A stretch of 64,000 bases of DNA from an uncultured Opitutia bacterium (lineage in GTDB: Bacteria; Verrucomicrobiota; Verrucomicrobiia; Opitutales; UBA953), in the NCBI GenBank assembly GCA_903840355.1, contig CAIMFJ010000005.1, positions 310,001 through 374,000 of the forward strand. Direction: 5' to 3'. Both the position numbers and the translations under genes were made by a program. This document shows positions 3,078-35,617 of this stretch, in pieces (the first letter of the stretch is position 1; every line of letters begins with the position of its first letter). The notes under the pieces are model-generated. The model was not told the origin of the DNA. It was given only the letters and a program-made list of their open reading frames with translations, and searched no databases.

Positions 3078-3095
3078 TGGAGTCAAAGTGAGGCG

Positions 3096-3866: not shown

Positions 3867-3875
3867 GGTCGTAAA

Positions 3876-4973: not shown

Positions 4974-5003
4974 AGGATGAATAAAAGGAGGTTGGATAAA
5001 GAA

Positions 5004-6098
5004 TTAACCCGTGGGCAATTGCGAGAGGTCGAACGGTTTAACGCCCACGTGTTCGGCGATTTCATTGAACGCTTTGACTTCCGCTTCCGAGAAGAGCAAG
5101 CCGCCTGCTTTGCGGCTGCGGAGGGCGAAGTTGGCTTCCAGTTGGCCAGGGAGCATGCAATTTTCGTTACCGTGACCGAGCACATCAGCTAAGACCGCTT
5201 TCACGTTTTGCGATTGCGTGCGACCTTGGGCGAAGACGCCCGAGCTGATGGCTTCAGGGTGAATCACTTGGAAGAAGAACGCACAGGCTTGTTTTTCGCC
5301 TGGGACGTGGGTGCGACTGCGAATCGTGGGCAAGGAGCCACCGATAAAGCCCGCAACGATTTCGTTGATGAGAGACAGACCGTAGCCCTTGTGGGCACCG
5401 AACGGTAGTAAGGACACCGCTTGATTTGGATCGAGGGTGATTTTACCGTCCTTATCCACGGCGGCATCAGGAGGTAGCGGTTTACCTTCGCGCTTGAGCA
5501 CTTGCACGCGGCCCATGGCGATCACGGATGTGGCCCAATCGATGACGATGGGGTAGCCAAGCGCTTCAGTCGTCGGGAAGCCCCAAGAGTGAGGGTTGGT
5601 GCCAAGCGTCGGGAATTTACCTTGGAAGGGGACTACTTCCGCAAGGGTCGCCGTGCAGTTCGTGTAAGCGATGTAACCGCGTTTTGCGGCCTCCATCACG
5701 TAGCCACCGCCCCAGAGGTAGTGGAAGGCGTTATCAACCGAAACCGTCCCCACGCCGTATTGGTCGGCTAATTGGATACAACGCTCAATCGCGTCCACGG
5801 CCACGGCTTGACCTAATTTTTGTTGAGCATCCCACACTTCAGCCGCAGCGAAACGCGAAGGCTTCTTTTGGACGACCGCATTGGGTTTGCAACCCGGGAC
5901 TGGGGCACCGGAACCAAACAACTCATCCAAGTGCAACGCCTTGAGGGCATTGTGGGTCCGGATGCCGTGGTGCGTGGCCATGCTGGCCATTTGGGCCGCT
6001 TGGGCCGATTCCTTTTCACCAAAACCACGTTGGCGATAAGCGGCGATCACGAGCGCTTCGTGAGCGGCCTGAGGGACGACATAGAATGTTTCGGACAT
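5004..6098 (-). CDS. LDH2 / malate dehydrogenase-like oxidoreductase
   Basis: A 364-residue member of the LDH2_EcMDH (ureidoglycolate / sulfolactate / malate dehydrogenase) family, NAD(P)H-dependent reductases of 2-oxoacids unrelated to classical Rossmann dehydrogenases. Visible family features are ATHHGIRTHNA near the N-terminus, the TLGTNPHSWGFP nucleotide-binding segment, and LLPFGAHKGYGLSLINE. It is the second gene of the hexuronate operon, between a D-2-hydroxyacid dehydrogenase gene and kdgK, so a 2-keto sugar acid is a plausible substrate. That is inferred from context only. Confidence 0.85.
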   Translation of the reverse strand: MSETFYVVPQAAHEALVIAAYRQRGFGEKESAQAAQMASMATHHGIRTHNALKALHLDELFGSGAPVPGCKPNAVVQKKPSRFAAAEVWDAQQKLGQAVAVDAIERCIQLADQYGVGTVSVDNAFHYLWGGGYVMEAAKRGYIAYTNCTATLAEVVPFQGKFPTLGTNPHSWGFPTTEALGYPIVIDWATSVIAMGRVQVLKREGKPLPPDAAVDKDGKITLDPNQAVSLLPFGAHKGYGLSLINEIVAGFIGGSLPTIRSRTHVPGEKQACAFFFQVIHPEAISSGVFAQGRTQSQNVKAVLADVLGHGNENCMLPGQLEANFALRSRKAGGLLFSEAEVKAFNEIAEHVGVKPFDLSQLPTG

Positions 6099-21227: not shown

Positions 21228-23942
21228 ATGTCATCCAGGACTTGGTTCTGGAAGCTGGCGGTCTCCCTCATTGCCCTCGCTGTAGCTTGGGTTGAGTTCT
21301 ACCCCATCGCTCCCACCCCCCTCGAAGAGTTTGTCCCTACGCAAGTCATCGCTAACGCCGCGGACTTTGCGAAGTTGCATCAAGAAGCCAAAGAGCGCGT
21401 GCGTCTCTACAAGGATGCCTCGGCTCCAAATGATAAGAAGTCGGTCTCCTATTTCCAAGCGTTACGCGACATCGGTGAAGGTCGCGGCCGGGCGAACCCC
21501 GTCGACCTCCGTCCTTTCTTCTACAAAGAAGCGGAGTTTGTGCGTGAGCCCGATATGACCAAGCGCAATGGGATTGTGCTTAAACAGTTACTGTTAAGTT
21601 CGCAGGGTAAGTTGAAGTTAGGTTTAGATTTACAAGGCGGCGTTTCGTTCACGCTCAAAGTCGATCCCACTGGGGCCGAGTCGGGTGCCCAAACTAATAA
21701 CGATAAGGCTGCCGTTTCACATCAGCAAATGGTGAACCAAGCTTTGCAAGTGATGGAACAGCGCGTGAATTCTTTTGGTGTCGCAGAGCCTGTCTTGCGC
21801 CCCGTAGGTGATTTGGCGCTCGAAATTCAACTTCCAGGTGAAGATGCCGCCAATAATCCCGACGTCATCGATGCTTTGAAGAAGCCAGCTAAGCTGGAGT
21901 TTCGTCAAGTACACCGTACCGCTCGTCCTTCCGAAAATGAGCGTGATTACTCGCTTAAAGCTTTACCTGAAGACGTGAACGCGGGGGCTTCGTCGGCCAT
22001 CGCGACTTACGAAGTATTGTCCCTTCGCGAAGTTGATCCCGTGAAAGGTGAAACGAAGATTCACCGCTACTACGTACGCAAGCGTGCGGATGCTACGGGG
22101 GCGATTATCAGTGCGGCTAAAGCTAATTCAACGGACGGCTTGGCCTTCTACGTTGAGATGAAGTTTACGTCGGAAGGTTCGAAGAAATTCGGTGACCTCA
22201 CGGCCAAAATTGCCGAAGGCAATGTTTCCTCGGTGGGTCAATTGGCCATCGTCTTAGATGGTAAATTACAATCCGCTCCGACGGTTCGCGAAGCGATTCG
22301 TAGCACGGGCGCGACCATCACCGGTAACTTCACGCGCGAAGAAGCCATCAATTTGGCCAACGTCTTAAATAATCCCTTAGAGTTTCCGTTGATCACGCAG
22401 GACGTCACCTCGGTGGGTCCGACGCTGGCGAAGGACGCCCAAGGGAAGTCGGTGGTCGCTTCGGCGGTTGCCGTCGCTTTGGTCATCTTCTTCATGATTG
22501 GTTTTTACCTCTGGGGCGGTTTTATCTCCGTCTTGGGCATGGTGCTGAACTTACTCTTGATGTTAGGTGCGATGGCTTACTTCGGTGCCACGATTACCTT
22601 ACCAGGCGTTGCGGCCTTGGTCTTGACGTTGGGGATGGCCGTGGACGCCAATATTCTGATCTTCGAACGCGTGCGCGAAGAAACCCGCTTGGGTAAGGAC
22701 CGCGCGATGTCGCTGCGTGAGGGTTATAATCGTGCTACCTGGACGATTATTGACGCCAACTTAACCCACTTACTCGTGGCGTTGATTCTAGCCTTCATGG
22801 GCACCGGTCCCGTGCGTGGTTTCGGGGTGACATTAATCATTGGTATTTTCACCACGCTATTCACCACCTTGGTGACTTGCCGTGGTTTACAGGAAATCTC
22901 CCTCAAGGGCGGGGTCATGACGCGCATCTTCGGGTTACCGGTCTTCCGTCATAACTTAAATATCCAATTCCTGAACTACGCCCGCATGGCGTTCGTGGTC
23001 TCGTGGTGCATTGTAGCCATTGGTCTCGGCGTGCTGTTGGTGAAGGGCAAGGAAGCCTTTGGTAAAGACTTCCGCGGTGGTGAATCGACGCAGCTAGCCA
23101 TTAACGCCACGGCGAAAGTTGATACGGGTCGAGTACTTAAGTTAGCGAGCGGTCTCGGCCTTGGAGATACGACGGTGGCGTTGCAAACCCCGGTGGGCGG
23201 GGGCGATACGATGCTCCGCATCGAAACCGAATTAACGAAAGATAAGTCGAAGGGTGACTTCGCTAACTTGGCGAAGATTGTCGCTGCCATTAAGGAGAAG
23301 TATCCTGAAATTCTTAAAGACGCCACGCAACCGGTGGATAAGTTGATGCTTTCACGAGAAGCGATTGGTGGCTCTGTGAGCGGTGATTTGCGTCAGAACG
23401 CGATCATCTCGGTCATCCTGGCCTTGGTGGGCATTGGTATTTACGTCTCGTTACGCTTTGAAACTGGCTTCGGGATTGCGGCCATGGTGGCCACCTTGCA
23501 CGACGTTCTGATGACCATTGCGCTGTTCGTCTTCTTTGGCGGTCAGTTCAATGCAGCCCTCATTGCGGCCATCTTGCTCATCATCGGTTATTCGGTGAAT
23601 GACACCATCGTGGTGTTCGATCGGATTCGGGAAGAACTGTCGAACAACCCCTCGCGTTCGTTGATGGAAGTCATCCACTTCGCCATCAATCGCACCTTGT
23701 CGCGTACCATATTGACCTCGTCGACCGTGTTCCTTTGTGCCGTGGCTCTCTGGGCCTTTGGTGCTGGGGACGTGCGTCTTTACGGCGAAGTCTTCATTTA
23801 CGGTGTACTCACCGGAACTTTCTCCTCCATCTTTATCGCGAGCCCCATTTTCTATTGGTGGCACCGCGGTGATCGCAAGGGTGTCGATGCAGCCGAGCTG
23901 CCTCGGACTTACTCTTGGGAGGCGGGTTCCGATAAGGTTTAA
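21228..23942 (+). CDS. secDF: SecD-SecF fusion protein-export membrane protein
   Basis: A 904-residue fusion of SecD and SecF, the proton-driven auxiliary of SecYEG export. The SecD half has LGLDLQGGVSFTLKV near residues 131-145, a large periplasmic region (VEQRVNSFGV, QLPGE), and the six-helix block with LGMAVDANILIFERVREE. The SecF half starts near residue 575 and has FRGGESTQL, GYSVNDTIVVFDRIREE and LSRTILTSSTV. Fused SecDF occurs in several phyla, including this one. It forms an operon with yajC upstream and recJ 12 bp downstream. Confidence 0.96.
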   Translation: MSSRTWFWKLAVSLIALAVAWVEFYPIAPTPLEEFVPTQVIANAADFAKLHQEAKERVRLYKDASAPNDKKSVSYFQALRDIGEGRGRANPVDLRPFFYKEAEFVREPDMTKRNGIVLKQLLLSSQGKLKLGLDLQGGVSFTLKVDPTGAESGAQTNNDKAAVSHQQMVNQALQVMEQRVNSFGVAEPVLRPVGDLALEIQLPGEDAANNPDVIDALKKPAKLEFRQVHRTARPSENERDYSLKALPEDVNAGASSAIATYEVLSLREVDPVKGETKIHRYYVRKRADATGAIISAAKANSTDGLAFYVEMKFTSEGSKKFGDLTAKIAEGNVSSVGQLAIVLDGKLQSAPTVREAIRSTGATITGNFTREEAINLANVLNNPLEFPLITQDVTSVGPTLAKDAQGKSVVASAVAVALVIFFMIGFYLWGGFISVLGMVLNLLLMLGAMAYFGATITLPGVAALVLTLGMAVDANILIFERVREETRLGKDRAMSLREGYNRATWTIIDANLTHLLVALILAFMGTGPVRGFGVTLIIGIFTTLFTTLVTCRGLQEISLKGGVMTRIFGLPVFRHNLNIQFLNYARMAFVVSWCIVAIGLGVLLVKGKEAFGKDFRGGESTQLAINATAKVDTGRVLKLASGLGLGDTTVALQTPVGGGDTMLRIETELTKDKSKGDFANLAKIVAAIKEKYPEILKDATQPVDKLMLSREAIGGSVSGDLRQNAIISVILALVGIGIYVSLRFETGFGIAAMVATLHDVLMTIALFVFFGGQFNAALIAAILLIIGYSVNDTIVVFDRIREELSNNPSRSLMEVIHFAINRTLSRTILTSSTVFLCAVALWAFGAGDVRLYGEVFIYGVLTGTFSSIFIASPIFYWWHRGDRKGVDAAELPRTYSWEAGSDKV

Positions 23943-23954
23943 AGCCTTCGGCGT

Positions 23955-25667
23955 ATGGCAGCATGGTCCCACCGGGTCACTGACGTGGCCCTCGTTCAGC
24001 GTCTCGTCGTTTCTTTAGGAATCAGCGAGCCGGTGGCCGTTTTTTTAGCCCGGCACTTTGCTGATGAAGCCGAGGCGGAGCGACACCTTCGTCCTCAGTT
24101 AGCGCATGTTTCCGACCCGTTTGCGGTCGGGGGTCTACGCAAAGTGGCAGAGCGTTTAGTCCGCGCCGCGCAAGCGGGGGAACGCATTGCGATCTTGGGG
24201 GATTACGATGTCGATGGCGTTTCGAGTACGGCGATGTTGGTGCATTTCTTACGTCGTCTGGGAGCCCAACCTTCGAGTTTTGTCCCGCGTCGCCTTGAAG
24301 AAGGCTATGGTCTCTCGATGGCGGCGATTGAACGCGTTTTGGCGGAAACCAAGCCTCAATTATTTATCGCTCTCGATTGCGGAACGAACTCTAAGGCAGA
24401 AGTAACCTTCCTTCAAGGGGCAGGGGTCGAAGTGATTGTTGTCGACCACCACGTTGCCAAAGCGGATTGCGTGGAATGCCTCCTCGTGAATCCCAGGGTT
24501 AATGATGCCGCCGATGCCCCGTGGCAATCGCTCTGCACGGCAGGGTTAGTCTTTAAGCTGATTCATGGCGTCCTGAAAGTCCTCCGTTTAGCCGGCGATG
24601 AACGCGGCACCTCGATTTCGGTCAAAGACTATCTCGATTTGGCCGCTCTCGGTACGATTGCCGACCTAGTCCCGCTACGCGCTGAAAACCGCATTCTGGC
24701 TTCGCATGGCTTGAAGGCTTTGAGCGAAACGCAGCGTCCGGGAGTACGAGCTTTGATTGAAGTCAGCGGCATGGAGCCGGGCAGCGTACTGACTTCCGTA
24801 GATGTTTCTTACCGCATCGGTCCCCGCATCAATGCCAGCGGTCGCTTGGCGGATGCCTCGTTGCCTTTAAAATTACTTTTATCTGATTCCTTGGAGGATT
24901 GTGCCCGTGATGCCGCCCAATTGGATCAGATCAACCGCGAGCGCCAAGAGATTGATAAGAAAGTTACCGAGGAAGCGGCGGCCCAAGCGGCCACGATGGG
25001 CGATGCCCCTGCTTACATTGTTTTTGGCGATTGGCATCCCGGCGTCGTCGGGATTGCCGCCGGCAAACTGTCCCGTTCGCTAGATCGACCGGTGATTGTC
25101 TTAGGACGTGAAGGTGACATCGCCAAGGGCTCAGGACGAAGTGTACCGGGGGGTAACCTGGTCGAGGCTTTGATGTCTTGTTCGGATTTATTGCTCACGC
25201 ACGGAGGGCATCCCATGGCCGTGGGGATTTCGATTAAAGTTTCCGCCATTGACGAGTTTCGTCAGAAATTTGCTGAAGCCATTGCGGTGCAGAAAGCTCA
25301 AGGTCAGGCCCAACCCGATGGTCGCGACTTAGAAATTATCCATTGGTTAAAAGTCACGGACGTGAGCGAACGCCTTCTGGACGACTTGGAATTATTGCAG
25401 CCCTTCGGGGAGGGTAATCAAGAACCGCTCTTCGGGCTGAAGAAATTCGTCTTTGAACGCGCCCCAACGGTTTTTGGCGAAAGCAATTTCCGGTACCAAC
25501 ATAACATCAATGCCTCGCGTCGCTTGAACTTTGTCGCTTGGCGCTTGGCGGATCGTTTACCCGAGTTGGGTCGACCCGTTGACTTAGCCGTTAAGTTCCA
25601 ATGGAATCGCTGGCAGGGAAGAAAACTCCTCCAAGCCGAGATTCTCGATTGGCGCTACAGCGCTTAG
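23955..25667 (+). CDS. recJ: Single-stranded-DNA-specific exonuclease RecJ
   Basis: 5'-3' ssDNA exonuclease of 570 residues used in recombination and mismatch repair. Motifs are LGDYDVDGVSSTA (residues 81-93), the ALDCGT motif, VVDHHVAK, the DHHA1 region with GPRINASGRL and HPGVVGIAAGKL, and GHPMAVG. The start is the ATG 12 bp after secDF; it is the last gene of the yajC-secDF-recJ run. Its stop abuts the stop of the next, convergent gene with no spacer. Confidence 0.95.
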   Translation: MAAWSHRVTDVALVQRLVVSLGISEPVAVFLARHFADEAEAERHLRPQLAHVSDPFAVGGLRKVAERLVRAAQAGERIAILGDYDVDGVSSTAMLVHFLRRLGAQPSSFVPRRLEEGYGLSMAAIERVLAETKPQLFIALDCGTNSKAEVTFLQGAGVEVIVVDHHVAKADCVECLLVNPRVNDAADAPWQSLCTAGLVFKLIHGVLKVLRLAGDERGTSISVKDYLDLAALGTIADLVPLRAENRILASHGLKALSETQRPGVRALIEVSGMEPGSVLTSVDVSYRIGPRINASGRLADASLPLKLLLSDSLEDCARDAAQLDQINRERQEIDKKVTEEAAAQAATMGDAPAYIVFGDWHPGVVGIAAGKLSRSLDRPVIVLGREGDIAKGSGRSVPGGNLVEALMSCSDLLLTHGGHPMAVGISIKVSAIDEFRQKFAEAIAVQKAQGQAQPDGRDLEIIHWLKVTDVSERLLDDLELLQPFGEGNQEPLFGLKKFVFERAPTVFGESNFRYQHNINASRRLNFVAWRLADRLPELGRPVDLAVKFQWNRWQGRKLLQAEILDWRYSA

Positions 25668-26846
25668 TTACTTAGCGGCCGGCTTAGCTGGAGCGGCCCC
25701 AGGCTTGCCGTTGGTGCCCTTAGCATTGGGGTCGGGGGCGGCATCGGGCATCTTGCGTTCTTCAATGCCCTTGAGCCGTACGGCATGACCACCATTGGGC
25801 GAGGGGAGAATAAAGAAGAGCGTCCGAACCTCGGCTTGTTGGTAGGTGCGAACGACGTTGCCGATTTGCATCCCATCATCGCCGGCGGTGTATAAATCCG
25901 CTTGGGCGTAGGATCCGATGGGGGCAGGCGAGGTGACAATGGCTTTCTCGTTAGGTGACAGCGTGGTAGTTTTACCAGGGTAGCGAATTTCCAGCTTAGT
26001 GCCTGAAAGGTTCATGAATTGAATTCCGCCGAAGGGGAAAGCTTCTTCATGGTCTTCCATGATAACGATGCGTCGCTCATTATTAGCTTTCGCAAAGAGG
26101 AGGATGTAGCGCCCGCTTTTTTCGAAGGTGCAACTCGCAAAGGGTGGGGCGACTTCACGATTCTTATCTTTATTAGGATCGTTCGCGGGAGCCTTATTAG
26201 GATCTGGCTTGCTGGGGTCAGGCTTCGCGGGAGTCGCGGGGTCGGCGGCCTTGCCATTTTTACCATCCGCTTTGCCAGGGGTCTTCTTGGGATCAGTCTT
26301 GGGTTGGGCTTGGTTGAAGTAAGCCCCGCGAATGATGTTTTCGGACTTGGTAATTTCCGCTTCGATGGCTTCGAGGCGCTTGGCGATTTCATTTATCTTA
26401 GACTGCAACTCGGCCATTTGCTGTTGGTCGTAAGAGGAAATCTTCGAAGTGCTTTTTTCGCTATTTTTATTTTTGAAGGATTGGAACTGGGTGAGGAGGG
26501 TTTGCAGTTCGGCGTTCTCCGCCGCTTCCCGGGTACGTAACTCTCGAATGTGCGAATTGGCGGCCGCAATTTCGGGATGCTGCTCTGTCGTGTTGTCCTT
26601 AATTTCGGCTGCCATGAAGAAATTAAGTTGAGGTGGCCCCATGTAGGTTTGCTCCGTGGTGAAGAAGTCGGGCGAGATATCCAGACGGGTCACCGTCTTC
26701 CCTTGCATGAAGCCCGCCCCAATAATCGCTTCATCAAACGAAAGGGCGCGAAACTGAATTCGCACCGCTTTTTTGCTCGCATCTTCAGATTGAGCGGAGA
26801 GGACGACTGCTAAAGCAGTCATCCAGCCTAAGAGAGAGAGTCGCAT
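25668..26846 (-). CDS. Secreted partner protein, copy 1 (coiled coil plus KPDP-type linker)
   Basis: A 392-residue predicted periplasmic or secreted protein with a signal peptide (MRLSLLGWMTALAVVLSA). It is a paralog of the gene at 30955-31734. Both contain PDFFTxExTYxGP near the N-terminus, then FPxGxxxFMNL, a beta-rich domain, RTLFF/RTLYF and a final VxLKxxExRK. This copy additionally holds a heptad-rich coiled-coil segment (about residues 88-170) and a Pro/Lys/Asp/Ala low-complexity linker (about 175-225), and ends in a Pro/Ala/Lys tail. Its ATG overlaps the stop of the giant upstream gene (TAATG), indicating coupled translation. Function unknown. Confidence 0.8.
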   Translation of the reverse strand: MRLSLLGWMTALAVVLSAQSEDASKKAVRIQFRALSFDEAIIGAGFMQGKTVTRLDISPDFFTTEQTYMGPPQLNFFMAAEIKDNTTEQHPEIAAANSHIRELRTREAAENAELQTLLTQFQSFKNKNSEKSTSKISSYDQQQMAELQSKINEIAKRLEAIEAEITKSENIIRGAYFNQAQPKTDPKKTPGKADGKNGKAADPATPAKPDPSKPDPNKAPANDPNKDKNREVAPPFASCTFEKSGRYILLFAKANNERRIVIMEDHEEAFPFGGIQFMNLSGTKLEIRYPGKTTTLSPNEKAIVTSPAPIGSYAQADLYTAGDDGMQIGNVVRTYQQAEVRTLFFILPSPNGGHAVRLKGIEERKMPDAAPDPNAKGTNGKPGAAPAKPAAK

Positions 26847-29800
26847 TAAAGGTCTTTTTGAGAGAGGAAGCGGACGGCTACAATTTGAAAACGACGACCG
26901 AGCGCGATATTCGGGTAGTGGAGGCGACCCACGTTATTCGCTTGACCGATACTAGGTTGCGGAGCCGAAACTTCGGTTTCGGGCGTTTGGCTCGGATCAA
27001 TAAATTCCGGGATGCGCTGTACCACAGCTTCAACCCACGAGGAGGCGTAGGTTTGGGTCGAGCCAGGGGTGGCTACGACATCGCCATAGGCTCGGATAAT
27101 AAAGGTATCCGAACGCGAGGCGAGAGCGGGTCCAATGGCTTCTAAAATGTCCGATTGAATGAGTGAACCCGGAGCACCTTGTAGCATGTGGGCTTTAATG
27201 CCTGAACCAGACATGCCCAGTCTTGGGTCTTCAAGGTTGAGGAGCGCCGATTGGCCATCTGCTTCAAAAGTAGAATACATCACTTGGAAGGGGACTGATC
27301 CGATGCCTGCACCTAAATGTGGGTCTTGTTGAGCTCCGGAAGAAACGGGGGCAGGGGTACTGCGGTTCGAAAGTTGGGCACCATCATCATCTGCCCGAAC
27401 GATGGCAACTTGGAGTACGCCGCCTAAGGCAGAACATTCATAGGGGGCACAGGTAAAACGATTCACAAATTCCGAAAGTCGACGTAACGGGATGTCGACG
27501 CCTTTGCCTTTGAACGTTGGGAGGGTGTGACCATCGATAGAAGAACTGTCTCCCCAGAAGTTGTGGCCGGTGCGGTGTAAGTCCTTCACGCGCCAGCGGA
27601 TTTCATCCACGATGGATTTAGCCAAGAGTTGGATTTGGGCGTCATCTAAATTAGATAACCCAGTCCAAGCGGTCGCAGTGTTGTAGGGCGTTTTATAATT
27701 GTAGCCTACTTGATCGGGGCGCATCGCCCGCGGGTAGCGCGTATTCGCCGTGGTGCTCGGCTGGGTTTCGGTGGCATTACCCATCGAATTGCGTTTAGCA
27801 TTGGAGAGCATAATGGTCCAAGCGCCGACGGAAGTAGAGTTCACATTGAACTGACCTTCATTCAGGACTGAACCCGCAATCAGACGGTGATTCTGTAAGC
27901 GATTTAAGGTGGTCGTCGAGTCTCGCTTGGAGAAGAGCGAGATGCGTGGATTGGCTAAGCCATTAACGTTATTGGCAAAGTCCGTGATGACCTGTTGCTG
28001 GCTACGCACCACGGTGCCTTGGTGACGTTCGGCCACCGCTCCCGAGAAGAAGTAGCGGTCAAAGAGGGCCATGTTGTGGAATAAGGTTCGATCCGCCCAA
28101 GTGATGGCGCTACTGGTGCCTGGGAAAGTATAACTATTCCAGTAAGTGTTCACGCCAACCATTGGAGAGGGGAAACTGTTACCAATCGCAAACAAGGGGT
28201 CTTGGTCGGCGATGGTAAAGTTCGCGTGCGTGAACTGCGCTAAGGAAATCGGAGCGGAGAGTGGAACTTCCGTGTAAACGGCGGAAGTTTGTCCAGAGGC
28301 GGTGTTCGAGGTGCCACCAAAAGCTAGAGTTCCGCCAGGACCAGGTTGGAAAACTTCGGCCCAACTATTCACAGGATAAATCGTTGCTTTAAAACTATTG
28401 GAGGTCGTGGCGTATACCACAGGAGGGGTGGTCAGCATTGGAGCAGCCGGAGGTATGCCCGTTGATTCGGGGCGGCAAGCCGTAGCCATCGGATTGGAGT
28501 GAACAAATAACGGATAGGGCATCGGGTCGTTAGGCCAGCGAATGCCAAAATCAATCACTGCGAGTAAATTAGGAGGCTGACCTGGGGCAGAGAGTGCCGT
28601 GCCTGGAGGAATGATTTTGGGGGGAGCTGAACCTGCCCTTGGCGCGTCCATGGAGTTAGACGTTAATTCAGTGACTTCACTGCAACCATTATACAGCACG
28701 GCATCACCTGCATTGCTGGTGCCCATGATGATGTCACCGGGCCAAGAACTGAGCAGGTGGCGAATGTAAATCGGGGAGCTGGCGGAACTGACTAAGCCAA
28801 CACTAATGGTATCCGTAGTGCTGGGTGCTAAAGGCGAGCGATCTTGATTTAAGCAAGGCAACATAAAGCCGCCCATGAAATTATAGTTATTGGTAGAGGT
28901 CGTGAAACGCGAAATGGGTAAGGGGGTGGTGTTGCTAGGCGTGAAAACGCGAAACTCGCCCGGCCCGAGAGTGATGGGGGGGATGTAGGTCCGGAATTCT
29001 TCATTCCAGTTGGCTTGTCCATTCGAAGCATCACCCGCTGCGCCGGCAGAGGCTAACGCTAAGGTTTGCATATCCCACTGCCAAGAACTGGTCGCAGCTC
29101 CTGAAGTTGGGGTCTTGGAGAATTGGAAAAACCAAGAGGACCAAGCCCGGTAGGACAAACGCATTGCGGCTGCTTCGTTGGCGACTGATCCCACTTTAAC
29201 CGCGATGTTATAAGGATTATGCAATACCGTGATGGGGGTGAAAGTGAGGTTAATGACGCCGTTGTTATTTACTAAACCGAGCACCATTTGTTGGCGTGCC
29301 ACATAGGGGAAGACGCCAACGCGGGTGATCCGCATCGCAGGGGCACCTCCTGGATCATTATCATTGGCCCAATAGTTCGTGGCATTATCCATTCGGTTGA
29401 ACTTGTGGCTGTAGTAAGCCGTGCCACCGTAACCAGACTGAGAGTAAGCGACGGTATTAGGATAAACGGCGCGGGCGGTGATGGTGGGCGTCGTGGGCGT
29501 CGGCCAGGAGACGCCAGCGACCGTGCCATTGCCGTAATAGCCAGTATCCCCAGCGGCCCCTTTATAGAGTAAATAATAACTCCGCAGTGATTCCCAAGTG
29601 GGGCCTACTTGAGTGCTCGGAGGATTGCCCATGCGCCAAAGCGGGCTGGTTTGATAGGAAGTGCCCGCTGCGTTAATCGTAACCTTGAAGTCTTGATAAG
29701 CCCCGGGTTCATGCACACCACTATCATTCGGATTAATCGTGAAGGTCACGCCGTTTAACGGAAATGGTGGGCTATTGCTGTCATTGGGGGGAACTCCGCT

Positions 29801-30901
29801 GACGAATTCCGTGTTATTGAAGTCGGCATCCGATTTTTCAAAAGCGAGAGACAGGTCGATTTTTAAGCCGCCCATAAAGGAATCACAGAGGACGCCTTTA
29901 GAGTAGAAACTACAATCGGTCGAGAGACACTGCGTTAAGGTGGGTGGGGTGGTTTCCGGGAAGACGGTTGGGTCTAAGTTGAGGAGTTGGGAAATGTAAT
30001 TAACCCGGGAATCAATGCCCGAAGAGGGCATGTTAATAAAAGGACTGACGCCACTCGGGTTGGAGGGAGGGTAAACCATGATGGTTTCGATGCCAGGGCG
30101 AGCGGCCCCGCGGAGGCCCTGCATTTGGAAGTCGCTCCGGGTGGTTCCCGTCACAGAGGTAGGAGGTGAAATGCGCGGGTCTTGGAAATTGATGCGAGCT
30201 TTGATGCCTTCGTCGCCCACCCAATAAGCGTAGGAACCTGCAACCCCATCATCGGGGAGCGGAACTTTGGGGAGCTTCACGCGCCCATCGGGTTTGCCAG
30301 GGTTAGTTCCATTCGCGAGGACGTAAGTGCTTGCGCTCGCATCGCCCACTAAGGTCACCATCATCGGACCCGTGGTAGGATTGTAATCCGTCTGCCAAGG
30401 CGCCCATTGATTGATTCCGTAGTCGGTCTGTTTGTATAAGTTGACCGTCTGCGAATTGGCGGGTCGATCATGTCGACCGCTGATTAACCATGCAGGGGGT
30501 TGCAAGGGGTAGTCGCTGCGCCACACGCCCGTCCACATGGGGTTGGGTAAGTTGCTCCAATTCCAAGCTGCTTGGTTGGTCGGAGAGGTTGCTTTGCTAT
30601 CGTTGGGCGGAGGGTAGATACTGTCGGCGGTGATATCTGCTCGGGCCGTCATGCGACGGTCAGGCCCTGCCTCTTGTTGTAAATGACCTAACGCTAAGCG
30701 TAACGAGACGACGGCTTGGAGTCGACTTTGGGCCCGGTAAGCGGCCGATTTGGCTAAACGAGATTCGACGGTCAAGAAGGCCGAGAGGCTGATGACCATC
30801 AACAACATCGCTGCCATAATTGTTAAAGAAAGTATAAGACTGAAACCCTTGCGGGTAGCCTTAGCGGGGACCTTGTTAGGAAAGTCAGGGGTAGGGGACA
30901 T
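26846..30901 (-). CDS. Giant pseudopilin-like protein, Verru_Chthon cassette A type, copy 1
   Basis: A 1351-residue exported protein. A short positively charged leader ends in RKGFSLILSL (about residues 17-26), a prepilin-peptidase-like site followed by a hydrophobic helix. The position-5 Glu of normal pilins is Leu, as in GspK-type tip pseudopilins. Next comes LRLALGHLQQEAGPD, the hallmark I associate with Verru_Chthon cassette protein A. Later, WVGDEGIKARINFQD and FNVNSTSVGAWTIML recall the NVNTA region of GspK. The rest is Ser/Thr/Asn/Pro-rich and probably beta-structured. It is paralogous to 31724-35617 along its length. Role inferred as a surface or pilus-tip component. Confidence 0.82.
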   Translation of the reverse strand: MSPTPDFPNKVPAKATRKGFSLILSLTIMAAMLLMVISLSAFLTVESRLAKSAAYRAQSRLQAVVSLRLALGHLQQEAGPDRRMTARADITADSIYPPPNDSKATSPTNQAAWNWSNLPNPMWTGVWRSDYPLQPPAWLISGRHDRPANSQTVNLYKQTDYGINQWAPWQTDYNPTTGPMMVTLVGDASASTYVLANGTNPGKPDGRVKLPKVPLPDDGVAGSYAYWVGDEGIKARINFQDPRISPPTSVTGTTRSDFQMQGLRGAARPGIETIMVYPPSNPSGVSPFINMPSSGIDSRVNYISQLLNLDPTVFPETTPPTLTQCLSTDCSFYSKGVLCDSFMGGLKIDLSLAFEKSDADFNNTEFVSGVPPNDSNSPPFPLNGVTFTINPNDSGVHEPGAYQDFKVTINAAGTSYQTSPLWRMGNPPSTQVGPTWESLRSYYLLYKGAAGDTGYYGNGTVAGVSWPTPTTPTITARAVYPNTVAYSQSGYGGTAYYSHKFNRMDNATNYWANDNDPGGAPAMRITRVGVFPYVARQQMVLGLVNNNGVINLTFTPITVLHNPYNIAVKVGSVANEAAAMRLSYRAWSSWFFQFSKTPTSGAATSSWQWDMQTLALASAGAAGDASNGQANWNEEFRTYIPPITLGPGEFRVFTPSNTTPLPISRFTTSTNNYNFMGGFMLPCLNQDRSPLAPSTTDTISVGLVSSASSPIYIRHLLSSWPGDIIMGTSNAGDAVLYNGCSEVTELTSNSMDAPRAGSAPPKIIPPGTALSAPGQPPNLLAVIDFGIRWPNDPMPYPLFVHSNPMATACRPESTGIPPAAPMLTTPPVVYATTSNSFKATIYPVNSWAEVFQPGPGGTLAFGGTSNTASGQTSAVYTEVPLSAPISLAQFTHANFTIADQDPLFAIGNSFPSPMVGVNTYWNSYTFPGTSSAITWADRTLFHNMALFDRYFFSGAVAERHQGTVVRSQQQVITDFANNVNGLANPRISLFSKRDSTTTLNRLQNHRLIAGSVLNEGQFNVNSTSVGAWTIMLSNAKRNSMGNATETQPSTTANTRYPRAMRPDQVGYNYKTPYNTATAWTGLSNLDDAQIQLLAKSIVDEIRWRVKDLHRTGHNFWGDSSSIDGHTLPTFKGKGVDIPLRRLSEFVNRFTCAPYECSALGGVLQVAIVRADDDGAQLSNRSTPAPVSSGAQQDPHLGAGIGSVPFQVMYSTFEADGQSALLNLEDPRLGMSGSGIKAHMLQGAPGSLIQSDILEAIGPALASRSDTFIIRAYGDVVATPGSTQTYASSWVEAVVQRIPEFIDPSQTPETEVSAPQPSIGQANNVGRLHYPNIALGRRFQIVAVRFLSQKDL

Positions 30902-30910
30902 GACGTAAAA

Positions 30911-30939
30911 ATATTAAAATATGAAAACGACTTTTACAA
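30911..30939 (-). promoter_or_regulatory. Sigma70-type promoter, nearly leaderless, for the copy-1 pseudopilin
   Basis: On the minus strand, TTGTAA (30934-30939) and TAATAT (30911-30916) are separated by exactly 17 bp. The ATG is at 30901, so transcription would start about 2-4 bases before it. This suggests that the second module can be expressed separately from the first, even though the genes are in series. Confidence 0.5.
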
Positions 30940-30954
30940 GTCAGCACTACGTCC

Positions 30955-31734
30955 TCAGCGACCTTTGAAAAGCGGGGCATCTCCTGCTTTCCGATCTTCC
31001 ACGGCCTTGAGGGCCACTTGGGGCGATTGCGGGGCGGCTGGGGTCACAAAATAGAGCGTTCTAAAGTCATTTTGCTGAAAAATCCTTAAATTATAAGCGA
31101 TGGTGCTTTGCCCATCAATAAGGCTGTAAATGGCTCCCTCGTAATAATGTCCTTCGCTGGCCTTGGAAAGAATCACCGCGGTACCCCGGGCTGGGATGGG
31201 CGTCTTTTGACCATGGAGGCGGATTTCGATGGGGAAGGGGCAAAGGTTCATAAACCTTAATGACCCGTAAGGGAAGGAACCAGGGGCGTCAGGCAGGGCG
31301 AAAATTCCTCCTTCGCTCCCGTGACTGGGGTCGACGAGTAAAATTAAATGTTGGGGGCTGGGGCTGACGGGTAAATCCAACCAAGCGAGGGGTTTTGTTT
31401 TAGTTATCGCTTCAGGGTTAGGCGGCTTGACTGGTTCGGTTGGCTTGGACGGTCCCGTTTCACTTGGCTTGCTGGCCTCAGTTTCGCTTCCACGTTCTGC
31501 CTGGTAGGGCAGCAACTCAAAATGAGCTGGGCCATGATACGTAATTTCTGGGGTGAAAAAATCTGGTGCGATGACCAGTGGTTCCATCTTCTTCCCGATT
31601 TTATAGCCGTACCCCATGATGGGCTGTTGCATCGCAATGAGTCGCAGATGCGCCTCGACGGTGGGAGGTTCTTGATCTTCGGCGGCCAAACCGACCGCAA
31701 TAAGACTTAGCAGGAGTGCCGTTTTAAATTTCAT
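30955..31734 (-). CDS. Secreted partner protein, copy 2 (short form)
   Basis: A 259-residue protein with a signal peptide (cleavage near residues 17-18, GLAAE). It is a paralog of the gene at 25668-26846 and shares PDFFTPEITYHGP, FPYGSLRFMNL, a beta-rich core and DFRTLYFV. It lacks the coiled coil of the longer copy and has instead a short Ser/Glu/Lys/Pro-rich linker (about 82-112). Its start lies 11 bp inside the end of the giant upstream gene, so the pair is translationally coupled as in the other module. Function unknown; the conserved pairing suggests it works with the pseudopilin. Confidence 0.8.
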   Translation of the reverse strand: MKFKTALLLSLIAVGLAAEDQEPPTVEAHLRLIAMQQPIMGYGYKIGKKMEPLVIAPDFFTPEITYHGPAHFELLPYQAERGSETEASKPSETGPSKPTEPVKPPNPEAITKTKPLAWLDLPVSPSPQHLILLVDPSHGSEGGIFALPDAPGSFPYGSLRFMNLCPFPIEIRLHGQKTPIPARGTAVILSKASEGHYYEGAIYSLIDGQSTIAYNLRIFQQNDFRTLYFVTPAAPQSPQVALKAVEDRKAGDAPLFKGR

Positions 31735-34700
31735 CGGGGGTAAGCCAGCGGGTGCTGATGATTTTAAAGCGGCGTCCGAGTAGCTGGTTCACGGGCGTCA
31801 AGGTAGTCGTGACGGTAGGGTCGCTGGCGTTGCTCTGTTTCGGCGTGTTGTGATTGAGGCGCACCGCACTGCTGGAAGTTTCCGCGACATTATTATTGTC
31901 GAGGTAATCTGGGACGCGTTGAGCGATGGCTTCAATCCAGCGGCGGGCACTATTGCCATCCGCCATGTCGGCTTCGCCATAAACTCGGATAGTAAACGTA
32001 TCGGAGCGGGTCGTGAGGGCACTGCCCATCACTTGGAGTAAATCGGATTGGAGAAGATTACCAGCGGCTCCCATGGCAGCATGGGTTTTATTCGTCCCAC
32101 TGGCGGTGACTGCTTCGATGTTGGTCGGGCTAGCGGTCCAACCTGCGGTGTTGGCACTCAATGTGGCCGCAGACACGGCTCCGATACTTCCTTTGTTAGA
32201 AAGTCGATCGCTCAGGCCCGCATTATAAACCTCGTCCGCTCGGAGGATGGCGGACTGCAACGCACCCGTGCGACTAGCCCAAGGGGTGGTATTTAAAAAA
32301 CGGTTTATAAATTCAGTTAGTCCGAGGTAAGGGGTCGCTGCGGTCGTGAGTCCGCGAAAGAGGCGCGAGCTTGGGGGATTGAGGAGATCTTGTTCCGTCC
32401 GGGGCAGCACCGTGAAGCGAGCTTTGTTTTCTTTTACAATCGCTTGAGCTAAGGCCAGAATCTGGGCGTCGGTCAGGTTGATGATGCCTTGCCAATTAGA
32501 GTGCGTCACTTCGGCCATGTTTCCCGTCGCATTCAAGGTGTTACCCGACGGCGTTGTGCGCGGGTATCGGGCATTCTGTTGGGTCGCAGGTAGAGTGCTG
32601 GTGTATTGGGCGAGGGCGGTCTTTTTGGCCGCACTTAAGAAAGTCGTCCAAGCTTCAACCGACGTCGAGTTTACATTAAAGGCCCCTTGATTGAGTAAGA
32701 CACTCGCACTGGTTTGGTGCTTACCCAAGGCCGTCCTTAAATCGCTACTCGTTTTTGATGAGCGGTATAAACTCATCCGAGGATTGGCTAACGGGGCGAT
32801 GTCATTCGCAAAGTCATCCAGTACTTGATTGAGAGAACGATTCTCTTGAAACGTCGACGTCGGCGAGCCGGCCGAGGCGGTCGGCTGCGTGGGTAGAGGG
32901 TCTGCCGGGTTGGTAACTCGAGTCATCTCGGGTGCCGCCCCCGAAAGAAAATAGCCGTCCCATAAAGCTTGATTGAGTAAATAGCTCGCATCAAATTCCG
33001 TCCAGTTAGGGCCGTTGACTTGGTAGCTGGCGTTGGAAGCAACGAGCGTGCTGGCAAAACTATTACCGATAGCAAAAAGCGGTTGTTGATCGCGTAGCCC
33101 AAAGTTCGCGTGGGTGTATTGAGCTAAACTTAGCGGTGCGACTAAGGGAATCTCCGTTAACTGAGAATTGCTGCTGCCAGCACCGGTGAGTGCGTATCCT
33201 CCAAACGCTAAGCCGTTGTTGGTCTGAATCACTTCCGTCCAACTACTTGGGCGATATAAACGCATGCGGAAACTTGGCGGGGCACCGAGGTAGCCATTGC
33301 CGTCTCCTAAGGCTGTTCGACCGGCCCCATCGGCCCGTTGCGTTGCGGCCATAGGGTTAGAGTGCGAGAAGAGGGGGAAGGGCGAGAGTGCTGGTCCCGT
33401 GCCGCCTGGAGGGGATTCGGTGACAGGTTTCATCGCCAAATCCATCACGGTGATGATGGAAGGAGGCTGCGGAATGCCCCGAATGTACTTAGGAGCGATT
33501 TGGCTGTAGTTCGCAAAAAACTTTTCCCCTGCGACCCCGACTTTGGCTGGATTGAGACTCCGGTAATATAATTCGGTGTGTTCACTGGTGTGTTGGTACA
33601 GTGTAGCTGTATCCATCGTGCTATTGATGGTGTCGCCTGGCCAGCAGGCTAAACCATAGCGCACCCGGAAATCACCCGCCGGGAGAACTTCGAAACCAAA
33701 GGCGTCCGAGGTTGACCATTCAGAGCTTGGCCCGAAGCCCCAATCATCCAAGGTGTCATTAAAACCTCCGGATTGATTAAACGCATTAGTCAAGGCAACA
33801 ACCCGATGCCAATCTACTGTGTTGGGGTCGCTACAAGAGAAAACTCGATATTCGCCTGGTTGTAAAACGAAGTTCGGAATATTAATCCGAAACATGTCGC
33901 TATCGTTCGAGCGTTGGTCGTCTTGCAGGCCAAAAAAGAGACTTAAGGGAATCTCAAATGACATCGTCGGACCGAGTCCGTAATTGGTGTAACGTTTAAA
34001 GCGGAAAACCCATTGGGACCAATTAGTAAAGGTAAGTACGGCAGCGGCATTACCAGTCTGCCCGTTGACATTACCGTTGAGTGAGAGGGCGACGTTGTAC
34101 GGGTTGTGGAGCACCACAATCGGGGTCATGTTAAACCAAATCCCGCCATAGAAATAGCCGCCGCTGAAGAAGGTTTCTTGATTGATACTAAACACCATTT
34201 GCACGCGGCTGAGGTAAGGGGTGGCTGCGACATTTAAGGGACGCGGGAGTGGTTGTTGCGTTTGACCGTAAAAATTGCCTTGGTCGCTGACATTAGGGTT
34301 TAAGCTCCCAATATCGCCGTTATAGATTTCGGGATAACTGTAGAGACGCTGCCGAATGGTCGCAGGATCGCCGCTGTCCGGTGTGGGATGGAGGACGTTG
34401 GCATTCGGGTAAAAGGTACGAGCGGTGAGCATCGGTTGACCTGACCCAGACCAACCGAGTTGTTTGTAAAGTCGGTGGTAATCGCGCAAGACTGACCAAG
34501 CAGGCCCCCGCAAATTGCCGTTTGCGGTGTTGCGATTGAAAATCGGAGCCAGGGGAATCGTGCTGCCATTAAACGGTACGGACATGCTGATGGTCTCGAT
34601 GCCATTTTCGGTCGTCGTGGCCGCTGCATTGGTCCGTCCTGATCCAAACTCGCTCGCTGCAAAGTCGGCGTCCGATAATTCAAAGGCCAGCGAGAGGTCC

Positions 34701-35617
34701 CGCTTTAATCCGCCATGATAACTGTCGGCTAAAACGCCCGAAGCATAGCCGGTGAGGTCGTGGTAAAGTCGGCGCGAATTGAGCGGAGTACTCGTGCCGT
34801 CGTTGAAAGTGCTGAGTTGATTTAACTGTCGTACGCTTTCCGATTTAGGTAAATCGGGGTAACTACTAAAATTTTCAAAACCTTGGATAAGGTTGAGGCT
34901 TGGGATGACAGGACTGTGTAGCGCGGCTAAGGCACCATTCGAATTAGCCGTATTCAAGGTGCGTGTGTCTTGAAGATTAATGCGGGCCTTAATGCCTTCA
35001 TCGCCAATCCAGTAGGCATAAGAGCCATTAGCTCCGTCATCGGGTAAATTGATTTTTGGCAACGAAACGAAGCCACTTGGTTTGTCGGTTTCAGCACCAG
35101 AAGCACTACCGGGTCCCACTAATGGGACTAACGTGTTGGCAGTTGGAAGGTAGTTGGTTTGCCATGGGGTCCAAGTAGCGTCGGGGTAGTCTGCTTGGCC
35201 AAAAAGCGAAACCGACTGTGAGCCAGCAGGTTGATCCGCTCGTCCGCTGACTAGCCATTGAGGCGGCTCATTCGGATAGTCTGAACGCCACACCCCAGTC
35301 CAAACGGGGTTGAGCAAACTAGCTCCACTGACATTTGGCTGCGTGATGTCGGCCCGTGCGGTCGCTCGTCGATCGGGCCCAGCTTCTTGTTGCAAGTGGC
35401 CTAGGGCTAAACGCAGGGCAGCGATGCTGTTCAGCCTAGCACGTTGATTCAGTTGTTGCTGCCAGGCTAACCGCGCCTCGATGGATAAAAATGAAGCGAT
35501 GATAATCACCGACAACACCAACATCGACATCACCGTTAGCGACAGAATCAGACTGAAGCCGTGACGGGAAACCCTTGGGGCGGAAGGGGGTGGAGGTGCG
35601 GGCGACACTGACGTCAT
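31724..35617 (-). CDS. Giant pseudopilin-like protein, Verru_Chthon cassette A type, copy 2
   Basis: A 1297-residue paralog of the protein encoded at 26846-30901. The N-terminus has a Pro/Ser-rich leader, then RHGFSLILSL (about residues 18-27) and a hydrophobic helix, then LRLALGHLQQEAGPDRRATARADI, the same block as the other copy. Further shared segments are the Trp-rich TGVWRSDYP, WIGDEGIKARINLQD, VLHNPYNVAL, LANPRMSLY and FNVNSTSVEAW. It is the first gene of the four-gene block, with a promoter-like region at about 35653. The missing Glu5 and the NVN motif suggest a GspK-like tip role (inference). Confidence 0.82.
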   Translation of the reverse strand: MTSVSPAPPPPSAPRVSRHGFSLILSLTVMSMLVLSVIIIASFLSIEARLAWQQQLNQRARLNSIAALRLALGHLQQEAGPDRRATARADITQPNVSGASLLNPVWTGVWRSDYPNEPPQWLVSGRADQPAGSQSVSLFGQADYPDATWTPWQTNYLPTANTLVPLVGPGSASGAETDKPSGFVSLPKINLPDDGANGSYAYWIGDEGIKARINLQDTRTLNTANSNGALAALHSPVIPSLNLIQGFENFSSYPDLPKSESVRQLNQLSTFNDGTSTPLNSRRLYHDLTGYASGVLADSYHGGLKRDLSLAFELSDADFAASEFGSGRTNAAATTTENGIETISMSVPFNGSTIPLAPIFNRNTANGNLRGPAWSVLRDYHRLYKQLGWSGSGQPMLTARTFYPNANVLHPTPDSGDPATIRQRLYSYPEIYNGDIGSLNPNVSDQGNFYGQTQQPLPRPLNVAATPYLSRVQMVFSINQETFFSGGYFYGGIWFNMTPIVVLHNPYNVALSLNGNVNGQTGNAAAVLTFTNWSQWVFRFKRYTNYGLGPTMSFEIPLSLFFGLQDDQRSNDSDMFRINIPNFVLQPGEYRVFSCSDPNTVDWHRVVALTNAFNQSGGFNDTLDDWGFGPSSEWSTSDAFGFEVLPAGDFRVRYGLACWPGDTINSTMDTATLYQHTSEHTELYYRSLNPAKVGVAGEKFFANYSQIAPKYIRGIPQPPSIITVMDLAMKPVTESPPGGTGPALSPFPLFSHSNPMAATQRADGAGRTALGDGNGYLGAPPSFRMRLYRPSSWTEVIQTNNGLAFGGYALTGAGSSNSQLTEIPLVAPLSLAQYTHANFGLRDQQPLFAIGNSFASTLVASNASYQVNGPNWTEFDASYLLNQALWDGYFLSGAAPEMTRVTNPADPLPTQPTASAGSPTSTFQENRSLNQVLDDFANDIAPLANPRMSLYRSSKTSSDLRTALGKHQTSASVLLNQGAFNVNSTSVEAWTTFLSAAKKTALAQYTSTLPATQQNARYPRTTPSGNTLNATGNMAEVTHSNWQGIINLTDAQILALAQAIVKENKARFTVLPRTEQDLLNPPSSRLFRGLTTAATPYLGLTEFINRFLNTTPWASRTGALQSAILRADEVYNAGLSDRLSNKGSIGAVSAATLSANTAGWTASPTNIEAVTASGTNKTHAAMGAAGNLLQSDLLQVMGSALTTRSDTFTIRVYGEADMADGNSARRWIEAIAQRVPDYLDNNNVAETSSSAVRLNHNTPKQSNASDPTVTTTLTPVNQLLGRRFKIISTRWLTPDEI

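Follow-up and report, generated by a model that had tools for sequence, protein, structure and literature searches.

The four consecutive minus-strand genes at positions 25668–35617 of the analysed window (64,000 nucleotides of DNA from an uncultured Opitutia bacterium) form two paralogous pairs, each consisting of a giant pilin-like protein and a predicted secreted partner. On balance, we consider it probable that the giants are alternative tip subunits which, with cognate secreted partners, are used by one shared pilus machine. Many further pairs in related bacteria suggest that such putative fibre tips, each with a partner matched to it, are widespread and have gone unstudied. An earlier note on this DNA had proposed a duplicated surface fibre-tip or secretion device, and that interpretation as a whole is partly supported.

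Two gene pairs in the window

The first pair consists of giant 1 (P0002, 1297 aa, 31724..35617), for which the ORF, an AlphaFold2 model and VIA matches are available, and partner 1 (P0004, 259 aa, 30955..31734), with a signal peptide recognized by eye and two predicted beta-sandwich domains. The second comprises their paralogues, giant 2 (P0001, 1351 aa, 26846..30901) and partner 2 (P0003, 392 aa, 25668..26846); all four are encoded on the minus strand. The layout described in the earlier note was recovered exactly in the ORFs, and both giants and partners align pairwise: P0001 and P0002 share 35% identity (659 bits) over almost their full length, and P0003 matches P0004 at both ends, in two pieces (E 9e-21 and 6e-11). 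Partner 2 additionally carries a coiled-coil-like insert, at about residues 80–175, and a Pro/Lys-rich linker; SMC-like matches of P0003 in the family profile search are, in our reading, due to this insert. The coupling of genes was found in the sequence of both junctions, as P0004 starts inside giant 1 (11-bp overlap, 31724–31734) and giant 2 is joined to P0003 by TAATG at 26846. A promoter and terminator scan gave the same counts as shuffled sequence. The duplication proposed by the earlier note holds with respect to the paralogous pairs, but not as a purely local event, since the genome encodes at least seven giants and this locus accounts for two of them.

Both giants contain GFSLILSL and FNVNSTSV, with Leu at residue +5, which confirms the prepilin-like start without Glu5 that had been noted before. 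In giant 1, this start (G/FSLIL) and the N-terminal helix, of putative extent, occupy residues 20–75 (35393..35560, minus strand), and in giant 2, as read from sequence, residues 19–75 (30677..30847, minus strand). Further along giant 1, also on the minus strand, the giant alignment reveals the GDEGIKARIN motif (residues 205–214, 34976..35005), whose columns are mostly invariant, FNVNSTSV (residues 980–987, 32657..32680), with invariant or near-invariant columns, and the C-terminal RSDTFTIR stretch (residues 1204–1211, 31985..32008). The prepilin-like motif is present in 124 of 126 distinct giants examined, and Glu at +5 in none of the 124, in a tally in which up to 16 motifs may be placed one residue off. 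FN[VI]NSTS also occurs in giants of other families.

Predicted fold and family of the giants

The AlphaFold2 model of P0002 (pLDDT 81.9, pTM 0.88) covers residues 98–1297, so that residues 1–97, including the N-terminal helix, lie outside it. When it was compared with 999 chains using VIA, GspK ranked first (3ci0_K, 203 of 280 residues aligned) with a modest Z of 5.4, to be read with the caution that Z below 8 can mean merely a common arrangement. XcpX came second (5vtm_X, Z 5.1, 195 of 259 residues aligned), and these were the only two of the 999 chains with Z ≥5; Foldseek alone returned nothing for the model at E 0.001. With the reserve that such a Z imposes, the top structural matches assign a GspK fold to the giant and suggest that each giant is a modular pilin built on this fold and enlarged by a very large insert. 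This insert probably sits inside the GspK core, because the alignment to GspK is split. The inserted module (residues 326–688 of the model) also matches Ig-like folds, at Z below 5, an observation that was not counted as evidence.

Profile searches for the two families named in the earlier note gave scores below the curated cut-off of either family. Against GspK (NF037980, cut-off 130 bits), P0001 scored 13 bits over residues 18–92 only, P0002 had no match at E 1, and the paralogous giants reached at most 18.1 bits. Against Verru_Chthon cassette protein A (TIGR02600, cut-off 332.3 bits), neither P0001 nor P0002 matched at E 1, three paralogous giants scored about 10–13 bits, and a search of this genome gave no match at E 0.001. 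The giants were thus rejected as TIGR02600 members, with scores far below the cut-off or no match. The GspK likeness that had been suggested therefore stands by fold and motif and fails by profile score, while the likeness to Verru_Chthon A is retained as a common GspK-type framework and lost at the level of family.

Secreted partners and their association with the giants

The partners carry a Sec-type signal and no anchor, as judged by eye, and are predicted to be secreted. In the VIA comparison, the partner model, with its two beta-sandwich domains, resembled the extracellular domain of PepT2 (Z 11.6, 178 residues aligned) and two AlgF domains (Z 9.7 and 8.7). The likeness to AlgF and to the PepT1/PepT2 extracellular domain lies in the two beta-sandwich domains, whereas identity is 10–16%, there is no family match, and the fold is silent on function. 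P0004 matched nothing in Pfam and NCBIfam at E 1, AlgF included. None of 41 partners matched a Pfam family at E 0.01, hence no PilY1 domain, and a PilY1-like partner was rejected at the level of sequence.

A contig search with P0002 alone found no relative, and an alignment-based contig scan found 535 stretches, from which 62 loci were kept. The partner adjoins the giant in 64 of 70 giants, a set taken from the related-locus search and the window that is biased to near relatives and includes near-duplicate genomes. Beforehand, this set had been restricted to giants with an intact 3' end, a length of at least 600 aa, a match no weaker than E 1e-50 and at least 700 bp of sequence downstream. In one of the 64 pairs, the partner is upstream of the giant. 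In two of the six unpaired cases (L182 and L196), the reading frame of the giant is broken and the partner comes after the remnant, and in another (L174) a second giant comes next.

The genome-wide search was made from the partner side. It placed 86 of 90 partner genes (98 matches, less 8 that were merged as second pieces of a gene already counted) beside a same-strand giant, with a profile that was built from giant-adjacent partners and may miss divergent lone ones. For at least 57 of the 90, the distance to a listed giant piece is no more than 900 bp; of the remainder, 24 of the 28 that fall in retrieved regions are at most 800 bp from a giant, four more are adjacent (L065–L068), and there is one further case. 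The four partners without a same-strand giant are two tandem copies (L232) that point away from an opposite-strand giant at a distance of about 270 bp, one that follows a 139-aa giant remnant (L238), and one with no giant within 12 kb (L251). The largest repertoire, of 15 partner genes, was found in one relative (G072). Of the 52 genomes in the order, at least 38 encode giants, and in 15 of the 38 listed genomes with giants the partner profile finds nothing. This absence is in part a matter of sensitivity, because a local search does recover a partner (L070) in one of these genomes, G020, and in part may be real.

Giant and partner also vary together. In a mirror tree of 18 two-pair loci, the correlation within pairs was r 0.96 and 0.95, and between pairs 0.585–0.639; the partial correlations were 0.94 and 0.92 within pairs versus 0.14 and 0.18 between them. 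Partner ORFs were trimmed to the profile envelope, as several were over-long upstream by the first-start rule; the untrimmed tree gave a similar result. The between-pair values are lower even though partner 1 lies at most 125 bp from giant 2 in 15 of the 18 loci. In these tight loci, giant 1 and partner 2 showed a partial correlation of 0.30 (permutation 0.014), which is not zero. Joint inheritance of the gene pair without contact could be the source of the high within-pair correlation. Together with the linkage seen from both sides, this co-variation upholds the dedicated partner of the earlier note.

The strict pairing, the overlap and the matched evolution would fit equally well if the partner was a periplasmic chaperone or assembly factor of the giant that stays in the cell. 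AlgF, described as a mediator of protein–protein interaction in an excerpt of PMC10641220, is among the nearest partner folds, which also favors this explanation. However, a partner is present for five of the seven giants of this genome and two are without one, and the lone copy at L251 has no giant nearby; we consider a chaperone unlikely. One of the two partnerless giants (L046) has a degenerate cleavage motif.

Pilus and secretion genes of this genome and its relatives

Whole-genome searches with PF00437 (type II ATPase, E 0.01) and PF07963 (N-methyl pilin, E 1) gave no match inside the window, which bears out the conclusion of the earlier note that the assembly machinery is encoded elsewhere. 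The rest of the genome contains a T2SS-like cluster with a GspK separate from the giants, one prepilin peptidase and an orphan four-pilin cassette. In the T2SS-like cluster, GspG is over its cut-off (108 bits) and GspD, GspE, GspF and GspK are best matches under theirs; its GspK is a separate 471-aa protein (NF037980, 64.7 bits, under the cut-off). As the cluster carries its own GspK, the giants were rejected as its missing K subunit.

With this cluster present, the giants could still serve as alternative GspK subunits of a T2SS, and the partner as a dedicated substrate or docking adaptor that is released to the medium and does not stay at a fibre tip. GspK has been proposed to contact substrates (PMC7541494, in excerpt), inspection of the partner by eye shows a Sec-type signal but no anchor, and TcpF is tip-bound as well as secreted (PMC9565799, likewise in excerpt). 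This arrangement is rather unlikely: the cluster already owns a GspK, and the pilin cassette akin to giant-bearing operons is separate from it. T2SS substrates are often enzymes, and the partner fold, unlike many of them, points to no enzyme.

Beside none of the seven giants of this genome was a pilin ORF recognizable by eye; the giants stand alone or with a partner, neither adjacent to Verru_Chthon B, C or D nor directly after H, I and J pseudopilin genes. The orphan cassette (L092) in turn has no giant or K gene adjoining, and 23 of the 25 genomes from the same genus contain its last protein. B- and C-like pilins of this genome are located at C5:105.9–109.5 kb (23 and 31 bits, under the cut-off). 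In one relative (G118, L144), an operon contains GspG-, GspH-, Verru_Chthon B- and Verru_Chthon C-like pilins followed by a giant and a partner, and in another (G025, L066) a giant and its partner likewise follow pilins. The B-like pilin of L144 also scores with GspI (17 bits). The orphan cassette and L144 share the order of their four pilins, with matches at E 3e-20, 2e-5, 2e-7 and 3e-10 against a small ORF set; this collinearity refers to the best match within L144, as two of the cassette pilins (cas2 and cas4) had slightly better matches in other loci (L131 and L066), and all cassette pilin assignments are below curated cut-offs.

The lack of a recognizable pilin ORF beside the giants here would also be expected of pilin-like membrane proteins that function outside any filament, such as large envelope proteins with a borrowed pilin start. 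The giant profile, like the partner profile, found no relative in a sequence search of solved structures at E 10, which fits such proteins as well. Against them stand the GspK fold of the model, the position of giants after pilins in operons of relatives and the lack of Glu5, a trait that tip subunits share, so that this origin of the giants appears very improbable.

Proposed working of giant and partner

It is proposed that each giant represents a minor pilin of the GspK type (PilX/PilK-type) carrying an inserted module of several hundred residues. Prepilin peptidase would cut it before the Phe of G/FSLIL, and the giant, devoid of Glu5, would cap the H–I–J minor pilin complex that initiates a type II/type IV filament, which would leave its large module exposed at the tip. 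The partner, a putative non-pilin tip protein specific to its giant, would be exported through Sec, bind that giant in the periplasm, and be shown or released via the tip, comparably to TcpF/TcpB or PilY1/PilX. Several giant–partner pairs may use one H–I–J cassette and one machine, resulting in alternative tips. In this best reading, cleavage, tip position, binding, tip contact and machine sharing are all predicted parts.

A broader version, possible but doubtful, is a tip-exchange system in Verrucomicrobiota, in which one H–I–J set and one motor would be combined with caps chosen from a repertoire of giant GspK-type proteins with differing modules and their own partners. The Verru_Chthon cassette would then be the linked version of this system, in which A would correspond to K and D to H, with less certain equivalences of B to I and C to J. 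If true, Verrucomicrobiota have diversified their filament tips into repertoires, receptor-like or cargo-carrying, that are served by one common machine. The scale would be larger than that of Myxococcus, whose three PilY1 clusters were suggested to use one common machine (PMC7541494, in excerpt).

Comparison with known systems

The giants resemble GspK and XcpX in fold, in the absence of Glu5, in their place after pilins in relatives and in the NVN-type motif pointed out in the earlier note, which has a counterpart in GspK. They differ in being about four times larger, through insertions, in scoring below the NF037980 cut-off, and in being multi-copy, accompanied by a secreted partner and, here, unlinked to pilins. 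GspK was itself named as a pilin with an inserted domain in an excerpt of PMC8179133, where PilB and PilC of Streptococcus sanguinis are presented as pilins bearing a large functional module thought to be tip-exposed. The module of PilB is grafted through a short loop, whereas in the giants the insertion probably lies within the GspK core, judging from the split alignment.

Among type IVb systems, TcpB–TcpF (PMC9565799) and CofB–CofJ (PMC10191384) are described, in both cases in excerpts of the papers, as a minor pilin at the tip combined with its cognate secreted protein, which is soluble. In contrast, the pairs presented here occur many per genome and use a GspK-type scaffold, and their binding is a prediction. 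In the type IVa pair PilX–PilY1, a Glu5-lacking minor pilin is combined with a non-pilin tip protein (PMC7541494, in excerpt), whereas in the pairs described here the bulk is in the pilin rather than in the partner, which has no Pfam match.

In the literature library searched, no paper on the Verru_Chthon cassette was found under that name or its TIGR numbers, and the reading given here offers a testable identity both for it and for a common class of giant uncharacterised Verrucomicrobiota proteins. Verru_Chthon A and the giants have about equal length, a homologous N-terminal helix (probability 92–97%), and a DE-K-IN motif and a C-terminal stretch in equal order. GDEGIKARIN of giant 1 aligns with TDDESCKVNIN (slice probability 12.5%, weak alone), and RSDTFTIR with KSNTFTVH (last 150 residues, probability 83%), whereas the central region is unalignable. 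Real Verru_Chthon cassettes have other pilins beside A, as at L128, where B, C and D exceed their cut-offs, and a partner match was found beside none of the eight TIGR02600 proteins checked. A pilin-like start of the TIGR02600 type is present in 78 of 145 genomes.

Giants and putative secreted partners occur as gene pairs

The pair locus consists of four ORFs on the minus strand, placed as the earlier note had described and forming two paralogous pairs, P0002 (giant 1, 1297 aa) with P0004 (partner 1) and P0001 (giant 2) with P0003 (partner 2). The sequence contains the 11-bp overlap as well as the TAATG junction, and within the window no match to an N-methyl pilin or a type II ATPase was found, in agreement with the reported lack of other assembly genes nearby. 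The locus is adjoined (window 21228-25667) by SecDF-like (904 aa) and RecJ-like (570 aa) ORFs, which from their sequence read as fused SecDF and RecJ; the 570-aa ORF is also a neighbour in the related loci L048, L049, L051 and L053-L057.

The claim that the partner accompanies the giant was borne out from both sides. Of 70 giants, drawn from the related loci and the window and followed by no less than 700 bp of sequence, 64 have the partner, most commonly with overlaps of 11 bp (22), 4 bp (10) or 1 bp (10), and a same-strand giant lies beside 86 of 90 partner genes. Two of the remaining four partner genes face an opposite-strand giant, a third comes after the remnant of a giant and the fourth is solitary. 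The sequence types of giant and partner largely agree, with 35 pairs of type 1, 26 of type 2 and 3 mixed (n = 64). Of 52 genomes of the order, 23 gave partner matches in a profile search (up to 15 per genome) and 38 have giants, including all 23 partner-bearing genomes. The partner profile had no match in the other 15 giant-bearing genomes, at least one of which (G020) was wrongly missed, as a local search showed a partner adjoining the giant in locus L070. In the source genome, five of seven giants have a partner, in one case upstream of its giant. One paralogous giant there (L046:7940-12208) lacks a partner and begins with a degenerate motif (SAFALVV vs GFSLILS); it is possibly decaying or reassigned.

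Matched evolution and the partner fold

Evolutionary distances were correlated across 18 distinct loci with two pairs each, after trimming of overlapping ends and signal peptides. Within pairs, r reached 0.96 (giant 1/partner 1) and 0.95 (giant 2/partner 2), and between pairs only 0.585-0.639; the partial correlations were 0.94 and 0.92 within pairs and 0.14 and 0.18 between them, and 0 of 2000 permutations reached the within-pair partial value for either pair. For the 15 tight tandem loci, r was 0.97 and 0.95 within pairs (partial 0.92 and 0.88) and 0.75-0.81 between them (partial 0.30 and 0.19), which leaves some signal between pairs. Because partner 1 lies within 125 bp of giant 2 in these 15 loci, the difference is not explained by linkage alone; whole pairs that were transferred or converted together could account for it.

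The partner has a signal peptide, recognized by eye, and two beta-sandwich domains in a model built from 41 sequences (pLDDT 88.3, pTM 0.77). No Pfam match at E 0.01 was obtained for any of 41 partners. The closest solved fold over both domains is the PepT1/PepT2 extracellular domain, and the second domain is closest to HGSNAT and AlgF. AlgF has been described as a mediator of protein–protein interactions for which neither acetylesterase activity nor polymannuronate binding was seen (PMC10641220); as a pointer to the partner's role this likeness is suggestive only. Partner 2 contains a coiled-coil-like stretch (window 26322-26609, P0003 residues about 80-175) and, after it, a low-complexity Pro/Lys/Asp stretch; partner 1 is without the coiled-coil-like part.

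Giants as candidate GspK-type pseudopilins

Earlier, the giants had been likened to GspK and to Verru_Chthon cassette protein A (TIGR02600). At the level of family models neither likeness was recovered: no Pfam or NCBIfam model passes its cut-off in P0001 or P0002, nor any NCBIfam model in the five paralogous giants of the genome, and TIGR02600 has no match in the source genome at E 0.001. Among 145 genomes of the phylum, TIGR02600 picks up proteins in 78, mostly through about its first 60 positions, and its cut-off is passed in only 2. When profiles are compared, the N-terminal helix of 21 giants aligns with that of 8 true TIGR02600 proteins with high probability (92%; 97% with a second giant set and 97% for an N-terminal slice). 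Profile slices point to a shared C-terminal stretch (83%) and, quite doubtfully (12.5%), to a shared DE-K-IN motif; their order is the same in both families.

The GspK likeness gained structural support. Residues 98-1297 of P0002 were modelled with AlphaFold2 from 48 sequences (pLDDT 81.9, pTM 0.88). Foldseek alone gave no match at E 0.001; VIA ranked first GspK of enterotoxigenic E. coli (3ci0_K, Z 5.4, 203/280 residues, 3.6 Å) and second XcpX (5vtm_X, Z 5.1, 195/259 residues, 3.5 Å), the only 2 of 999 chains with Z of at least 5. In both alignments the matched regions reach close to either end of the model, an arrangement that may be read as a GspK core interrupted by large insertions. Since Z is modest and the model large, this match is insufficient alone; the GspK assignment is supported independently by the start motif, recognized in 124 of 126 distinct giants and never with Glu5, and by operon position in relatives.

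Assembly genes and the Verru_Chthon letters

The source genome has a T2SS-like cluster (L093), in which GspG passes its cut-off and the best matches under cut-off are GspD, GspE, GspF and a 471-aa GspK, as well as a PilB/PilT/PilC-like cluster (L094, assigned by eye and by PF00437 matches) and one prepilin peptidase match. Prepilin peptidase is present in 48 of 52 order genomes, which makes it non-discriminating; of the four genomes without it, G183, G203 and G204 are giant-free and G206 (86% complete) has a giant.

A four-pilin cassette of the source genome (L092, C5:105.9-109.5 kb) has no giant or K gene beside it, and its last protein occurs, mostly as a single copy, in 23 of 25 genomes of the same genus. 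In G118 (L144), five pilin ORFs are directly followed by a giant of 962 aa and a partner of 229 aa. Below cut-off throughout, the best matches of the last four pilins are GspG, GspH, Verru_Chthon B and Verru_Chthon C, and those of the giant are Verru_Chthon A (27 bits) followed by GspK (17 bits). The four L092 pilins match these last four in the same order, and in G025 (L066) the sole match to the last L092 pilin directly precedes a giant with its partner. This arrangement suggests what the Verru_Chthon letters mean as pseudopilins. The scores support a probable A = K and D = H; D of a true cassette also matches GspH (43 bits). Less surely, B may be I, from one 17-bit GspI match, and C may be J, from its position and from the pilin preceding GspK in L093, whose best match is Verru_Chthon C (32 bits); GspJ gave no match at E 0.01 to the C protein of a true cassette. 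By eye, a true TIGR02600 protein (L129:7458-13682) is continuous, within an open frame of 2074 aa, with an upstream stretch resembling a secreted protein, and the L128 cassette has on either side ORFs that look secreted and carry hydrophobic-Arg tails; both appear to be cargo-like genes beside cassettes.

A possible tip device and its repertoires

According to one source, the tip of type IV filaments consists of H-I-J-K minor pilins with a cap subunit lacking Glu5, and often carries a non-pilin protein as well (PMC10191384). One Myxococcus machine is suggested to serve three PilY1/minor pilin clusters (PMC7541494), and pilus-dependent secretion has been proposed from the binding of TcpF to the minor pilin TcpB (PMC9565799). 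By analogy, the giants would be alternative K subunits carrying inserted modules, the partners tip proteins matched to them, and the orphan cassette L092 the source of H, I and J. The analysis itself shows the fold, the pairing, the matched evolution and the collinearity; cleavage and assembly of the giants, giant–partner binding, sharing of a machine and a target would follow from the analogy. The paper library searched has nothing under the Verru_Chthon cassette name or its TIGR numbers, and among the papers listed for Verrucomicrobia/Opitutae pseudopilins, prepilins and GspK no title or abstract opening describes such proteins. The pairs would thus be modular pilins of GspK type, each with a matched secreted protein, that have multiplied into large sets of paralogues.

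Between 10 and 15 partner genes occur in each of five relatives (G072, G075, G200, G066 and G155), where they are dispersed across numerous contigs or widely spaced, not clustered. Giants of another subtype (1465-2015 aa) occur in L059, L060 and L063, those of L059 and L060 also as tandem pairs with partners. In a single instance (L232:5895-7324 and 1842-5624), a tandem of two partner genes lies back to back with an opposite-strand giant across a gap of ~270 bp.
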